Source of the DNA: Tetramitus jugosus
Taxonomy: Eukaryota; Heterolobosea; Eutetramitea; Acrasida; Vahlkampfiidae
Assembly: GCA_937625935.1 (NCBI GenBank)
Contig: OW569347.1
Span: forward strand, 496,001 to 560,000
Direction: 5' to 3'
DNA length: 64,000 nt
The notes under the pieces were generated by a model. It was not told where the DNA came from, searched no databases, and saw only the letters and a program-made list of their open reading frames with translations. This document shows, in pieces, positions 22,789-53,072 of the stretch (position 1 is its first letter; each line of letters begins with the position of its first letter). The position numbers were made by a program, and so were the translations under genes.

Positions 22789-23115
22789 TCAGTTGTTCAA
22801 TTGAGAGGTCAGAGAGTCAATCACTCCCTGCAAAAAAGTGATATCGTCAGGCACCAGCGCCAAAGAATTGTAAACAAGTTTTGGATCAACCTTGTCGTAT
22901 TGATGGAGCAAGAAATCCTTCAACTTTGCAATCTTAGACAACTTCTTCGACTGTTCTTCGTCCAAGTGGAGACCAATGGTAGAACACGCCTTTGTGCATC
23001 GTTTTGCTGCTTCGCCTGAAAGTGTGAACCAATTACAAACAGCACTATGCTTCTCCTCGTTTGCTAGGTAGTCGTTCAACGTGACATTTTCGAGAGATTG
23101 ATGAGAAGTTTTTAA
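22789..23115 (-). CDS. HEPN-domain (HepT/DUF86-like) protein; 5' end unresolved
   Basis: The frame is open from 23115 down to the stop at 22789 (108 residues), with stops beyond. It contains no Met, so either a 5' exon is missing or the gene is a truncated copy. The sequence matches the HepT/DUF86 HEPN family: an SAVCNWF helix, then GEAAKR (at 23016-22999), then IAKLKDFLLHQYDKVDPKLV (about 22932-22873) and a last helix ITFLQGVIDSL. The family's RNase motif Rx4HxY appears as Kx4HxY: His at 22905-22903, Tyr at 22899-22897, with Lys in place of Arg. In bacteria HepT is an RNase toxin neutralised when MntA adds AMP to that Tyr. An MntA-like gene lies 78 bases away, divergent. The family call is good; activity is doubtful. 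Confidence 0.72.
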   Translation of the reverse strand, partial: LKTSHQSLENVTLNDYLANEEKHSAVCNWFTLSGEAAKRCTKACSTIGLHLDEEQSKKLSKIAKLKDFLLHQYDKVDPKLVYNSLALVPDDITFLQGVIDSLTSQLNN

Positions 23116-23193
23116 TCATTTCCTATTTTTCAAATAAAATTTCTTTGCACCGAGTAAAACAAGGAATTTCCTGTTGGTCGAAAAAACAAGAAC

Positions 23194-23454
23194 ATGTGGC
23201 AACCAACCCCTCACGCTTACAAGAATCCCTTTGCCTCTCAACCAGTGCAAAGCACGAACGAAGCCATTCCATTAATCAAACCCATCTTGAAGAAGCATGG
23301 AGTAAATTCGGCAAAGATTGTAGGTTCCTTGGCAAGAAACAAACACAGAGATGAGAGTGATGTAGATATCCTTGTAACCTTTATCCCTGAAGTAAGAAGT
23401 TCAATGAATATGATGGATATCATAGACCTCCAAACAGAAGCAGAAGGAGTGTGA
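23194..23454 (+). CDS. Minimal nucleotidyltransferase (MntA-like) protein
   Basis: The product is 86 residues from the ATG at 23194. Residues 24-62 carry the MNT fold: a helix IPLIKPILKKHGV, then the strand and catalytic motif VGSLARNKHRDESDVDILV, with Gly44-Ser45 and the two metal-binding Asp at 56 and 58. The final part (PEVRSSMNMMDIIDLQTEAEGV) matches the helix that normally precedes a last strand bearing the third Asp; here a TGA comes first, so that Asp is absent. The usual length is about 95-110. In bacteria MntA adds AMP to its HEPN partner and acts as the antitoxin. An AATAAA at about 23502 ends the unit before the next gene. No intron that would restore the last strand was seen. Confidence 0.78.
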   Translation: MWQPTPHAYKNPFASQPVQSTNEAIPLIKPILKKHGVNSAKIVGSLARNKHRDESDVDILVTFIPEVRSSMNMMDIIDLQTEAEGV

Positions 23455-23524
23455 TTCCACATTTCTTGGCAAATGACCCAAACTTTCAGTTCTATTGACC
23501 AATAAATTTTCTGAAAGTTGAAAA

Positions 23525-24439
23525 ATGGAGCATTCATTATTGTATTCGAAAGACTATCACCAATACCTAGAGAGAAAGAGGAACATTAATGAGCAAAGAA
23601 GGAGAACTTCTGTTCGAAATGCAATACTCATCACTCTTGTTGCCATCTTGTTGTCATCCTTGGGACCAGAAGTTGCTAAGAATTGCACCAGAGTTGTTGT
23701 GAACAAGTACAACAGTGCGACAAGATATTTCGAAGAGAAATCAAAAGAGAGAGCCTTGATAAAGAAGGCAAGAGAGTTGGAATCTGCAAAGGTAGAGAAG
23801 GAAAGAGTGAGACAATTGGCAATTGTAAAGGAACAAAAGAATAGAGAATCGTTCAATAGAATTGTTCAGAAGAGAAGAAGAGAGAGGGACCAGCATCAAC
23901 AACAGATTCAGATTAATATTCATTCTCTGAAGGGGTTGATAGGTCAATTGTTTGGAATGAAGCCTACTTTGCAATGGAGTGAGTTACTCACACAAGAGGC
24001 GTACCGAGGAGCGAAGGAGATTGTCCTTGGAGGTATTCCAACTTATGATCTTACCCCGTTATCAGAAAGAGTCAACAAGAAATTCACTTTTCTTGAGCGA
24101 TTAACATCATCCTGCAGTGTCTTCTTTTATGGCTACACGGCTTATGGGCAATGCGCTCCTCACCCGACACTTGAAGAAGCTTTGATTGAATGGAAGGTGA
24201 AGGATGTATCTGAGCAATTCAAAAGTTCAACCCATGTTGGATATGAAAGATATGGAATCTGTAGCAAAACGGCACTCATACTTTTCCTTTGTAACAAAGA
24301 TCCACCTGGTGCGGCTATCGTGTTTACTCACGAGTATTTGAACCCAAAATATGATCCATCTGTTGATTATACTCATCAAGAGAGTCTTGGTCTCCCAGAA
24401 TGGGTTGAAAATATGATAGAGAACTGGTTCGGAAAGTAG
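23525..24439 (+). CDS. Coiled-coil protein with an N-terminal membrane helix, function unknown
   Basis: The product is 304 residues from an ATG only 70 bases after the MntA-like stop. Residues about 32-50 (AILITLVAILLSSLGPEVA) form a membrane helix or uncleaved signal. A charged coiled coil follows (about 60-130, with KERALIKKARELESAKVEKERV). The C-terminal 130 residues look globular, with FFYGYTAYGQCAPHPTLEEALIEW and THVGYERYGICSKTALILFLCN. The pattern AYGQ..PTLEEALIEW...VGYxRYG is distantly like the CAP/SCP-1 superfamily, but the conserved His/Glu set was not identified, so this is only a suggestion. The spacing and direction may simply reflect genome compactness, not shared function with the MNT gene. 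Confidence 0.72.
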   Translation: MEHSLLYSKDYHQYLERKRNINEQRRRTSVRNAILITLVAILLSSLGPEVAKNCTRVVVNKYNSATRYFEEKSKERALIKKARELESAKVEKERVRQLAIVKEQKNRESFNRIVQKRRRERDQHQQQIQINIHSLKGLIGQLFGMKPTLQWSELLTQEAYRGAKEIVLGGIPTYDLTPLSERVNKKFTFLERLTSSCSVFFYGYTAYGQCAPHPTLEEALIEWKVKDVSEQFKSSTHVGYERYGICSKTALILFLCNKDPPGAAIVFTHEYLNPKYDPSVDYTHQESLGLPEWVENMIENWFGK

Positions 24440-48897: not shown

Positions 48898-51800
48898 TCA
48901 CTTTGTCGTTGGAACTTCTTTGATCATGTAACATGGTACATTTCTCTCTTCAGAATGACTCTTCTTGGAGAGAATACAATTAGGATTACCTCTGCCACTG
49001 ACAAACTTGCATCGACTCGATTCAACAAGTGGAACATTCTTATAAAACACCTGAAGTGTATGCTTCAAAGATTTGCTCGCGTTCTGTGAAATATCGAACC
49101 GCAATGCCATGTACATGAAGTATTCGTGCTGGTTCTCTCCAATGAGACATTTAAACATTGTTTGCTTATCTATCAACACCTTCTCCCTATCCTCGTATTC
49201 AAAATTGTCACATCTTCTTGCCATGACAGCAAATTGGCCGTAATCAAATTGAATATTAGTGGGATCAATAACTCCTTGTTGTGCAACCAACAGGTCTATT
49301 GGAACTCGAAAATACAAGGCATATCGTATTCGGTTGTGACTTCCATTGTCATTCGTCCCCTTATTGCCTGATCGAATTACCAGTGTTCCTTGATCCGCTC
49401 CCATATAACTGGCTCGACCCAACATGCCGGCAGTCGGTGTCGGTGGCGTAGTTTGTTGATCTGGTATTATCATATTGGCCACCTCCCAGTAAAGACCGGT
49501 GGGACTGCTCTTGGCTCCTTTGTTAGGTTTCAGCTTCGTCAATGTCATAACCATATTCAATCGCTCTTGCACCAAATAATTGACAACATCAATCTGGCTC
49601 TGAGATGATGGAACCTTCCTCTTCATCGTATAGAAATACTTTTTCGATTCCACAGGCTCAGGCATCTGAAAGCGATAAAGACTAACTGCAGCTGCAAATG
49701 CATCATCATCTCCACCATTTTCTTCTGCATTTTCTTCACCATGATGATTGTGGTGATGAGAATGGTGAGAATGGTGATGATCACCGCTCTTCATGTCAGT
49801 CATTGTTGTCTCATGATGATCCAAATCAGTCCCTCGTCTCTCTCCAGTCATATTGACTGCACCACTGCCATCCTCACTGTACTGACTATGCACTTGACTG
49901 TTCGAATGATTCATCACTGCACCACTGGTAGCACTATTTGCACTCGTATTAGTAGCGGCAGAATTCTCAGACTCCAAATACTGCTGCATCCGACCATCCC
50001 GCAGGAACAACTCTGCCATGTAATCTCTCTCCCCTCGATGAATCACTGCAAAGTGATAACTATCGTAGCACGCATAGGGAGATATCGATGAATTCGTTAA
50101 TAGCTTTTGCAGCAAAACAACATGTCCATATCGTATCGCATGTTGAAGAGCCTTGACAGCCACAACATCATTATTCCTCACTTCAACTGTTCTATTTTTA
50201 GACCTGGAAACAGATGAAAAAAGCATGCGATGATAGGCAATCATGTGAAACAGCTTACTCGTCAACAAAATACCACCCACAGCATCCATTGGTGAAATAA
50301 ATGACAAAATTCGATAGAAGACTGAACTGTGTTGCGTACTAATCAGTGGAGCTAACAGTGCGTGTGATCTTTTTCTTGAAATTTCATCAAGTGAAGCAAC
50401 AGTTGGTTTCAACGATGACGAAGATGATGTTGAAGCATCAGTCTCTCGTTGTTGATGATGATAGAATGAACTTGTTGTTTCTCTTTGTTTCGTCCTTTGA
50501 GAGCTATTGCTATTACTATGATGATTGCTATTACTATTGTGACTGTGGTGAGGATGATGATGTGAGGAAGGGGATGATGATGACGAAGATTTGGTAGCTA
50601 AAGCCATCAATGCCTCACTTACATTGTGATTCTGACTAATGATACGAGTCATGTTGACTGGTTTGGGTGGAACAGTGAACTCTGGAACAGATGACAGCAC
50701 AAATGGTGGTGGTTGTTGCTTCTTGTTGTTGTTGTTGTTGTTCGCATGATGGATGACAAGAGGTGGATAAAGTTGATTTTTTGTCGTTGTATTTGATAAA
50801 GAGCTCAAGTGTTGTTGCTGCTGTTGATGTTGTTGGTGGTGATGATGATGATGACTGCTGCTACTATTGTTATTGTTGTTCATGTATTGAGGACTGTAGT
50901 TGGAAGTAGGTTGAGAAGGTGATTGCTGATGTGAGCTCACTGGAGCTGAATATTGCTGTTGTTGTTGTTGTTGTTGTTGTTGATAGAATGATGGTGATGA
51001 TGACATTGATGGCAATGAAGATGGGTGAGAATGAGAGCTGCTCTTGTTGTGATTGTATGGAGGAGGAATGTGAGATGGTGGTAGTGGTAGTTGTTGTTGT
51101 TGTTGTTGTTGATAATGATAGTGTGACTTGTTATCATTGCCATGTCTAATCATTTGAGGTGATTGTTGTTGAGTGTGATGGAGATGATGGTTGTAGGGAG
51201 GTGGTGAGTGCTGTGATTGAGCATAGGAATGGGCAGAAGCATGTTGTTGTTGGGAGTAATAGCTCTGCTGAGCATGAGATGATGGTGGAGGTGTATGATG
51301 ATAGGGCGGTGGAGGATGTGAAGATGGTCCTACGGGAGCTGAGCTTTGCTGCTGCTGCTGTTGTGACTGCTGTTGATTCCTCCGAACCAAGGGAGCCAAA
51401 GGAGGAGGTGGAATTTGGGCGTACTTGAATCGTTTCACCAAGGGAGGGCCTACCTCTGGTGATGATTCATGATGGTGGTAGTCATGCTGATAGGGCTGCT
51501 GCACTACGATATCATTCGTAGGGGAGTTTTGTTGGTGGGGGACTTGAGACTGCAACGCAGAAATTGGCGGCAAAGGGAAAAGAGAGTTGGAGTTGGCATG
51601 ATCCAAGGAACTGCCGTAAATTCGTCGGGGTGGCGGAGGAAATAAAGACGCTGAACTATGGGTATCATGAAACGGCATCGACCTTGGAACGTTCGAATGG
51701 GAATTACCAATGGGAATTCGTTGTTGTTGAGTCATGAGATGCTTGGGCAGTGGAGGCCTTATCTCTCCTCCTCCATGAGGCAGCTGTTGTTGTTGTGATG

Positions 51801-52074
51801 TTGATGACGATGGTGGTGAGTGATGAAAAGCTGTATGATACGAACGTTTGTTTTGTTCCGTTGTTGTTGCTACCACGGGTGGAGAGTCTGTTGAGCTAAT
51901 CGATGAAACCGAACTTGGACTATGGATCATATGTCGTTGATGTTGTTGTGGCGATGAAAGATATTGAGGTTGGTATTGATGTTGTTGTGGTTGTTGTTCG
52001 GATTGGTGATGGTGGTGCTCTTCTGTACTATTATCCGATGTTGTTGCTACTGCGGTTGTGGAAGTTCCTATCAT
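48898..52074 (-). CDS. Large Gln/His/Ser-rich protein with an F-box-like helix region
   Basis: The product is 1,058 residues, single exon. The first about 540 residues are low complexity, with Gln, His, Pro, Ser and Asn runs. A helical region at about 565-665 starts LLAPLISTQHSSVFYRILSFISPMDAVGGI, with LTSKLFHMIAYHR like an F-box, and then KALQHAIRYGHVVLLQKLLT resembling an ankyrin-type repeat. A second low-complexity insert follows. The C-terminal about 250 residues are ordered and novel: YALYFRVPIDLLV, FDYGQFAVMARRCDNFEYED, then FMYMALRFDI. No enzyme motif was seen. The F-box suggestion is weak. Function unknown. Confidence 0.8.
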   Translation of the reverse strand: MIGTSTTAVATTSDNSTEEHHHHQSEQQPQQHQYQPQYLSSPQQHQRHMIHSPSSVSSISSTDSPPVVATTTEQNKRSYHTAFHHSPPSSSTSQQQQLPHGGGEIRPPLPKHLMTQQQRIPIGNSHSNVPRSMPFHDTHSSASLFPPPPRRIYGSSLDHANSNSLFPLPPISALQSQVPHQQNSPTNDIVVQQPYQHDYHHHESSPEVGPPLVKRFKYAQIPPPPLAPLVRRNQQQSQQQQQQSSAPVGPSSHPPPPYHHTPPPSSHAQQSYYSQQQHASAHSYAQSQHSPPPYNHHLHHTQQQSPQMIRHGNDNKSHYHYQQQQQQQLPLPPSHIPPPYNHNKSSSHSHPSSLPSMSSSPSFYQQQQQQQQQQYSAPVSSHQQSPSQPTSNYSPQYMNNNNNSSSSHHHHHHQQHQQQQQHLSSLSNTTTKNQLYPPLVIHHANNNNNNKKQQPPPFVLSSVPEFTVPPKPVNMTRIISQNHNVSEALMALATKSSSSSSPSSHHHPHHSHNSNSNHHSNSNSSQRTKQRETTSSFYHHQQRETDASTSSSSSLKPTVASLDEISRKRSHALLAPLISTQHSSVFYRILSFISPMDAVGGILLTSKLFHMIAYHRMLFSSVSRSKNRTVEVRNNDVVAVKALQHAIRYGHVVLLQKLLTNSSISPYACYDSYHFAVIHRGERDYMAELFLRDGRMQQYLESENSAATNTSANSATSGAVMNHSNSQVHSQYSEDGSGAVNMTGERRGTDLDHHETTMTDMKSGDHHHSHHSHHHNHHGEENAEENGGDDDAFAAAVSLYRFQMPEPVESKKYFYTMKRKVPSSQSQIDVVNYLVQERLNMVMTLTKLKPNKGAKSSPTGLYWEVANMIIPDQQTTPPTPTAGMLGRASYMGADQGTLVIRSGNKGTNDNGSHNRIRYALYFRVPIDLLVAQQGVIDPTNIQFDYGQFAVMARRCDNFEYEDREKVLIDKQTMFKCLIGENQHEYFMYMALRFDISQNASKSLKHTLQVFYKNVPLVESSRCKFVSGRGNPNCILSKKSHSEERNVPCYMIKEVPTTK
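50690..51420 (-). repeat. Trinucleotide CAA/CAT-type repeats in coding sequence
   Basis: On the minus strand, many CAA/CAG, CAT/CAC and AAC/AAT runs encode polyGln, polyHis and polyAsn segments of the large gene. The longest are at about 50950-50982 and 51088-51112 (CAA repeats) and near 50713-50743. They appear on the plus strand as TTG and ATG/GTT runs. They are in frame throughout, which supports the coding call. No simple unit covers the whole span. Confidence 0.7.
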
Positions 52075-52518
52075 TTGGATGGTGATATGGAATATTAGAT
52101 GTCAAAAAACGTCGTGAGAGGAATAAGGGAATCAATAATGAAATCGGTTGTTGACTTGACCACGTTATTTTGAGTGCAGTGTAGTGGTATGATGTTAAGT
52201 TGTGTTGTCGTCAAGATTTTTTGTGTGATGTGAGGGTTCTGTCCTCTTTATGAGTCTGCTTAGAGACTTGACTGGTGAATTGGCATCGTCCTCTTTGTAA
52301 AGGGAGTTCTCACTTCTCCCAAAAAATCAATACCGGATGTCCATCACATCACATTTCGACACTCTTTATAACAAAAAATAATACTCCGCATCGTATAACC
52401 GAATGTTGAACCATCTAATGGGAAAACTTCGGAGCTCATCGAGCGAAATCTCATCGGTGAAATCGAAAAAAATTAAGGAGAAAGGAATTCACAGAGAAAA
52501 AAGTAGAAGCACAAAATA
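52075..52518. other. Intergenic region between the large polyQ gene and a small membrane-protein gene
   Basis: This is about 440 bases between two divergent starts. It has ordinary AT-rich sequence with short A runs near 52470-52500 and no recognised gene or repeat. It probably holds both promoters. Confidence 0.35.
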
Positions 52519-53072
52519 ATGGTTCGATTTCCACGCATAGGCAACAGGGGATCCAAGATTGCATTGTACACGGGCTTCTCCACTCTCTTAATCATCAATG
52601 GTTTCATTCTCGTGCGAGCACTCAACGGTGATCCTATCAGTAAGTGTGAATATTCATTTTTTTGTGTTCTTATCGTTCTTTACTTTTTTTTTGACACGAC
52701 GGCTCAGAATTGGAGGGATTTGAGACCAAGGAGATTGGAAGAGAAACAGTGAGACAAGCGATTCGACCAGGCACGAGCTACGAAGATGTGAAGCGACGAT
52801 TGATTGAGAAGAAGAAGAGACAATTGATGGACAAGCAAGAACAAGAATCGGATTTGGATTTGAAGCAAATGGCAGAGACAACAAGCTTTGATTTTTGGAA
52901 TCAAAGTGATGATGACAAAGATGATGACAAAGATGATGACAATAACGAGAATGATGAAAACGGAAATGATGAGAATATGATTGCTTCTTTGAATGATGAA
53001 ATGAATCGCATGAATCAATTGTTTGAAGTGAAGATTAGACAAGCACCATCCATTGTTGCGAACAGGAAGTAA
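52519..53072 (+). CDS. Small single-pass membrane protein, function unknown (two exons)
   Basis: Exon 1 is 52519-52639 and exon 2 is 52708-53072; the 68-base intron has a GTAAGT donor and CTCAG acceptor, giving 161 residues. Residues 1-15 are basic (MVRFPRIGNRGSK), then one hydrophobic helix at about 16-36 (LYTGFSTLLIINGFILVRAL). A helical basic stretch follows (EDVKRRLIEKKKRQLMDKQ), and then an acidic run with a 12-base repeat encoding DDDKDDDK. The N-terminus is compatible with mitochondrial inner membrane or ER location. No family was recognised. The clean intron supports a real gene. Confidence 0.68.
52908..52942 (+). repeat. 12-base coding tandem repeat (GATGATGACAAA)
   Basis: About three copies of GATGATGACAAA encode the acidic DDDK run in the small membrane-protein gene. 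The unit keeps the frame. Confidence 0.75.

Follow-up and report, generated by a model that had tools for sequence, protein, structure and literature searches.

Head-to-head HEPN and MNT genes at two loci in the nuclear genome of Tetramitus jugosus

The closest described counterpart of the genes reported here is the HepT/MntA type VII toxin-antitoxin system of Shewanella oneidensis (SO_3166/SO_3165). In the cited part of PMC7641770, HepT is defined by the motif RX4HXY, whose Tyr is AMPylated in the Shewanella protein, and MntA by the motif GSX10DXD, the third metal-binding Asp of MntA being D71 in S. oneidensis. Two loci of the heterolobosean soil amoeba Tetramitus jugosus resemble this system in that members of the PF01934 and PF01909 families adjoin; on chromosome 4 both genes are recognised by Pfam, whilst on chromosome 15 the MNT is recognised by Pfam and the HEPN through its similarity to the chromosome 4 copy. 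Moreover, GSX10DXD is exact in both MNT copies and HXY is kept in both HEPNs. Unlike the Shewanella genes, the T. jugosus pairs lie on eukaryotic nuclear chromosomes, are arranged head-to-head, carry Lys in place of the Arg of the HepT motif, have truncated or broken frames and are known here from sequence alone. The HepT/MNT operons of cyanobacteria are a second point of comparison. The stretches NEEKxSA, GEAxKR and HQYD are common to the aligned set, but the T. jugosus HEPN is only 26-29% identical within that set and about 36% identical at best, and its gene order is divergent.

Eukaryotes are known to contain HEPN proteins, namely the Las1, KEN, Swt1 and Sacsin families, with a Swt1-family HEPN in Naegleria (cited part of PMC3710099). 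These have the HEPN fold in common with the T. jugosus protein but belong to other families, and the census table of the same 2013 paper places HEPN-M (PF08780/DUF86-PF01934) under Bacteria and Archaea. A toxin-antidote pair of bacterial type acquired by a protist, with some copies decayed, is described for a katablepharid in the cited part of PMC8099122, where the activity of the bacterial restriction-modification toxin-antitoxin element was shown experimentally. Unlike the T. jugosus pair, that element is mitochondrial and consists of restriction-modification enzymes. Among the open-licence literature matches listed, none concerned a nuclear HEPN/MNT pair of such kind.

The pair on chromosome 4

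The genome of T. jugosus CCAP 1588/3C, assembled from HiFi and Hi-C data, comprises 26.3 Mb (26,350,207 bp) in 55 scaffolds and 57 contigs, with 52 chromosomes, a longest scaffold of 699,783 bp, a QV of 56.7 and a chromosomal GC content of mostly about 41% (cited part of PMC11106597). The sequence searched here amounts to 26,348,746 bases (26.35 Mb) in 56 contigs. The window, by which we mean the whole stretch of 64,000 nucleotides that was analysed, is C4:496001-560000 on chromosome 4. It contains an HEPN frame and an MNT ORF that lie head-to-head, facing outward and 78 bp apart, in the interior of a 686,641-bp contig. The features of the pair, in window positions, are as follows.

22789..23115, minus strand: HepT/DUF86-like HEPN open frame (PF01934), 108 codons plus stop (22789-22791), with no Met codon
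22897..22920, minus strand: KDFLLHQY, the site of RX4HXY with Lys for Arg (motif scan; definition from the cited part of PMC7641770)
23116..23193, unstranded: 78-bp spacer between the divergent frames (from the coordinates), a candidate shared (bidirectional) promoter
23194..23454, plus strand: MntA-like minimal nucleotidyltransferase ORF (PF18765, PF01909), 86 codons, TGA at 23452-23454
23323..23367, plus strand: GSX10DXD active-site motif, GSLARNKHRDESDVD (motif scan)
23451..23495, plus strand: next-frame stretch, VIPHFLANDPNFQFY, by eye like an MNT continuation (three-frame translation) and not matched by the profile

An initial annotation of this DNA had described a head-to-head pair, 78 bases apart, of a HepT/DUF86-type HEPN and an MntA-type nucleotidyltransferase. 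The coordinates agree (22789-23115 minus, 23194-23454 plus), and in the profile check both proteins exceeded the curated Pfam cut-offs. The HEPN matched PF01934 (E=2e-8, 34.4 bits; cut-off 23.5), and the MNT matched PF18765 (Polbeta; E=2.7e-7, 31.1 bits; cut-off 26.9) and PF01909 (NTP_transf_2; E=2.5e-6, 28.2 bits; cut-off 21). Against the NCBIfam HepT/MntA equivalog models the window proteins reached 27.2 and 22.8 bits, far under the cut-offs of 60 and 60. The motifs named by that annotation (GEAAKR, HxY and GS...DVD) are all present, and a PPR gene (Pfam) adjoins the pair on the long HiFi/Hi-C contig. Its choice of Naegleria as the host was wrong, the organism being T. jugosus. Its remark that each family is rare is true of the HEPN, which is the sole PF01934 match at E<=10 in the 26.35 Mb searched, with no other HEPN genes of PF05168 found at the same threshold. 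It does not extend to the nucleotidyltransferase fold, for which the genome gives 10 PF18765 and 13 PF01909 matches, most of them in open frames of at least 300 aa. The NTP_transf_2 matches in large open frames are likely to be ordinary polymerase-beta-like enzymes and not small MNTs; one match (G000:C41:14409-14660) lies in a 618-aa open frame.

The other neighbour of the pair is a 304-aa ORF directly downstream of the MNT (23525-24439, plus strand), which has no significant Pfam match and, by eye, a possible membrane segment near its N-terminus. GC and GC3 are host-like. Elsewhere in the window, the composition profile shows a strong GC skew (0.35-0.36) at 50001-53000. Part of this region is occupied by a His-, Pro-, Gln- and Ser-rich minus-strand ORF of 1058 aa (48898-52074), whose codon content may be the source of the skew.

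The chromosome 4 HEPN runs for 108 codons without an internal stop, yet contains no in-frame ATG; residue 1 of its open part is immediately preceded by a TGA in the same frame. Against a 113-position HMM built on 37 cyanobacterial HepTs it aligns from position 16 to 110, and about the first 15 positions are missing. Homology reaches the N-terminal edge of the open part, since its profile score there was equalled or exceeded by only 10 of 1000 shuffles and 5 of 1000 random 15-mers from the window. The motif reads KX4HXY in both T. jugosus copies and RX4HXY in neither; in the chromosome 15 piece an Arg is found two residues earlier (RX6H). Among the 37 cyanobacterial HepTs recognised by motif, L074 is the one that also has Lys at the Arg position. 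The predicted model of the window HEPN, a helical bundle, is confident (pLDDT 86.7). Its top four matches in the PDB are chains of the MntA-HepT complex entries 6m6u, 7bxo and 6m6w, at non-significant E-values of 0.8-1.9 (TM-score by query 0.56-0.66), and nothing in the PDB reached 0.001. Because the HEPN model is all-helical, the matched chains are presumed to be HepT.

In the chromosome 4 MNT the TGA precedes the third catalytic Asp, which is therefore absent, whereas the chromosome 15 MNT keeps it. Accordingly, against an HMM of 111 positions built on 37 cyanobacterial MNTs, the two proteins match positions 20-72 and 21-107, respectively. A search for the missing C-terminus in the three frames of 22900-23900 gave no profile match. 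The model of the window MNT was poor (pLDDT 59.6) and was left unused.

A second pair on chromosome 15

New here is a further head-to-head pair, on chromosome 15. When each window protein was searched against the whole genome at E<=10, two loci were found for each, and these were the same two: the window itself and C15 at about 32.0-32.8 kb. Identity between the chromosome 15 and chromosome 4 copies is 42% over query residues 24-92 for HEPN and 55% over query residues 15-85 for MNT. On chromosome 15 the minus strand encodes the MNT and the plus strand the HEPN, and about 121 bp separate the ATG of the MNT from the point where the HEPN frame becomes recognisable. The MNT is a complete 110-aa ORF with an ATG, GSX10DXD and the third Asp (PF01909, E=6.5e-15). 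The HEPN, in contrast, is in two halves in different frames (L002:1934-2014 and 2017-2208), with an in-frame stop just upstream of the first. Both halves align to the chromosome 4 copy without gaps, which points to the loss of one base (a frameshift) between them. Neither piece alone matched a Pfam family, and this HEPN was recognised through its likeness to the chromosome 4 copy, the cyanobacterial profile giving a further, weak match.

By simple arithmetic, the probability that two HEPN loci would each have one of two small MNTs within 200 bp is about 5e-10. Chance adjacency, already thought unlikely in the initial annotation, was therefore rejected. In trees with the 37 cyanobacterial sequences, which were the only sequences from outside T. 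jugosus, the T. jugosus copies group together (97/92 for MNT and 99/94 for HEPN); in the HEPN tree, branches are long and the chromosome 15 copy is represented by its second piece only. A segmental duplication was considered and rejected, as ORF matches between window positions 10000-40000 and C15:27500-37400 revealed no flank similarity and only the pair with its antisense frames was shared. The duplication is thus not visible as a segment. The common orientation of the two pairs suggests that the divergent arrangement predates the duplication.

Purifying selection acted on both frames between the copies. The ratio pN/pS is 0.50 for HEPN (91 codons; bootstrap 95% 0.37-0.67) and 0.34 for MNT (60 codons; 0.20-0.53), compared with 1.22 and 1.18 (HEPN) and 1.48 and 2.8 (MNT) in the two other frames of the full alignments. 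For the 27-codon HEPN piece alone the other frames gave 1.26 and 0.9. Synonymous sites are close to saturation (dS 1.8 for HEPN, not computable for MNT); the split is therefore old and the pN/pS values are, if anything, too high. These values average both lineages and give no date for the end of selection. In a substitution-only simulation, the probability that open frames of such length survive neutrally fell from 0.19-0.27 at 0.1 substitutions per site to 0.01-0.02 at 0.5 and to 0.004-0.005 at 0.9. Taken with pN/pS, this low survival indicates that both proteins were probably kept through much of the period after the copies diverged, although the value at 0.1 substitutions per site means that the latest part of their history could be neutral.

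Gene order and prokaryotic relatives

Gene order was compared in 47 cyanobacterial loci (L023-L027, L030-L041 and L052-L081), 46 of which were gathered with HEPN queries and one (L027) with an MNT query; the fetched loci L028 and L042-L051 were left out of the set, and L030/L052 and L023/L053 are near-copies within it. A motif-recognised HEPN and MNT less than 400 bp apart were found in 37 of the 47, where the HepT motif was required to have R or K at its first place, so that HepTs with another residue there went uncounted. All 37 pairs are on the same strand with the MNT first and none is head-to-head, in keeping with the earlier statement that prokaryotes encode the two families together on one strand. 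The ten loci without a motif pair were left out of the order count, the profiles and the trees. As the recognised bacterial pairs are all same-strand, the head-to-head order in T. jugosus is most simply explained by one rearrangement before the duplication.

We sought a donor, and the best-scoring prokaryotic matches were only 30-36% identical for HEPN and 31-38% identical for MNT. A scan of genome contigs with the single HEPN returned nothing. With a HEPN alignment as query, 12 loci were found, all cyanobacterial; the query held three cyanobacterial HepTs and its patterns favour that group. Out of 386 cyanobacterial genomes searched, 36 matched at E<=0.01, the three best at 34-36% identity. 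Among plasmids, the HEPN had 14 matching records at E<=10, 13 cyanobacterial and one from Pseudomonas, of which only five were below 1e-3. A viral carrier was also considered and rejected, as three scans of viral contigs (with the HEPN, the chromosome 15 MNT and the HEPN alignment) yielded no relative. Since no prokaryotic match is close, it is the distribution of the families that argues for transfer of the module from a prokaryote. The earlier suggestion of a transferred module, inverted after arrival, is thus largely borne out, by the families, the native chromosome and the second divergent pair, the transfer itself being read from that distribution.

Origin and present state of the pairs

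To judge from their frames, three of the four genes now look disabled: the chromosome 4 HEPN, the chromosome 4 MNT and the chromosome 15 HEPN. Only the chromosome 15 MNT is a complete frame with a start and all catalytic residues, by a frame reading in which exons may be hidden. Given the stated QV of 56.7, the stops and the frameshift are unlikely to be base-calling errors. A missing ATG does not by itself establish decay, as 5′ exons can occur in T. jugosus genes; the enolase gene (L029, G000:C38:272292-273128) is a 457-codon open frame whose first ATG gives only 354 aa and which likely has a 5′ intron. The best solved-structure match of this enolase, with many differences, is 7ugh (472 bits over 341 residues), a structure from N. 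fowleri; the gene is useful for learning T. jugosus splice signals. The initial annotation had called the pair 'now used or decaying'. Decay fits better, because each locus has at least one disabled-looking gene, and use fits less well.

With both HEPNs and the chromosome 4 MNT looking disrupted, the window pair most likely represents the remains of a eukaryotic HEPN/MNT module that was once maintained, and not a working toxin-antitoxin pair. On balance, we think it probable that a HepT/MntA-type module was anciently acquired, made head-to-head, duplicated, long maintained and is now partly decayed. Such a (type VII) module would have entered an ancestor of T. jugosus from a prokaryote and turned head-to-head, an arrangement in which one short spacer could express both genes in a nucleus that has no operons. 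By the biochemistry of the family, the ancestral MNT would have silenced the HEPN RNase by transferring AMP to the Tyr of KX4HXY. The head-to-head unit would have been duplicated to give the loci on chromosomes 4 and 15, whose copies are mutually closest in the tested panel, and both frames then stayed long under purifying selection, as pN/pS between the copies shows. Both HEPNs and the chromosome 4 MNT would have been broken later, the chromosome 15 MNT staying complete. On chromosome 15 the toxin would have been lost first and the antidote kept, which is expected under relaxed selection on a toxin-antitoxin pair; on chromosome 4 the order of loss looks reversed.

That reversal leaves room for a pair split in trans, which is less likely. 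The intact chromosome 15 MNT, complete with GSX10DXD and the third Asp, would guard the almost wholly open chromosome 4 HEPN, each locus having lost the other half. The 108 stop-free codons of this HEPN, its confident helical-bundle model and its retained HXY speak for this reading. However, it has neither an ATG nor about the first 15 profile positions, the TGA directly precedes the homologous part and the catalytic Arg is Lys, so that we regard a split pair at work as doubtful. The same tentative standing applies to the fuller proposal that a bacterial module was domesticated in the nucleus, made divergent with a shared spacer, duplicated and selected, and that reciprocal loss then left a split pair that still acts, its antidote being on chromosome 15 and its toxin-like gene on chromosome 4.

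It is likewise unlikely that both loci are functional, with exons and introns that frame reading missed, and encode domesticated HEPN/MNT proteins in host RNA regulation. This would agree with purifying selection on both frames and with the probable 5′ introns in the genome, for which the enolase frame is the example. However, the break in the chromosome 15 HEPN is a loss of one base in a gapless alignment, which is too small for an intron, and the C-terminus of the chromosome 4 MNT is absent by profile from all three frames of 22900-23900.

More improbable still is that bacterial DNA fragments were inserted twice and never used. Such fragments would be expected to look disabled, as three of the four genes now do, but pN/pS of 0.34-0.50, against values above 1 in the other frames over the full alignments, speaks for past use, and long neutral drift is unlikely to have left the frames open. 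Moreover, two loci have the same head-to-head order with sister copies, and GC and GC3 have a host-like composition. Bacterial contamination or a wrong join, which the prokaryotic nature of the families might suggest, is rejected as far as the assembly allows and has next to no probability, as the pair is interior to a 686,641-bp contig of a HiFi and Hi-C assembly, has a second copy on another contig, differs in order from bacterial pairs, is host-like in GC and adjoins a PPR gene.

The partly decayed module that we favour is, for T. jugosus, a rare trace of a bacterial-type toxin-antidote system inside a eukaryote. That two divergent loci bear traces of selection indicates that a HEPN/MNT module can persist for long without an operon. 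Moreover, these loci make testable both the balance between toxin and antidote in a eukaryote and the order in which the two halves are lost.
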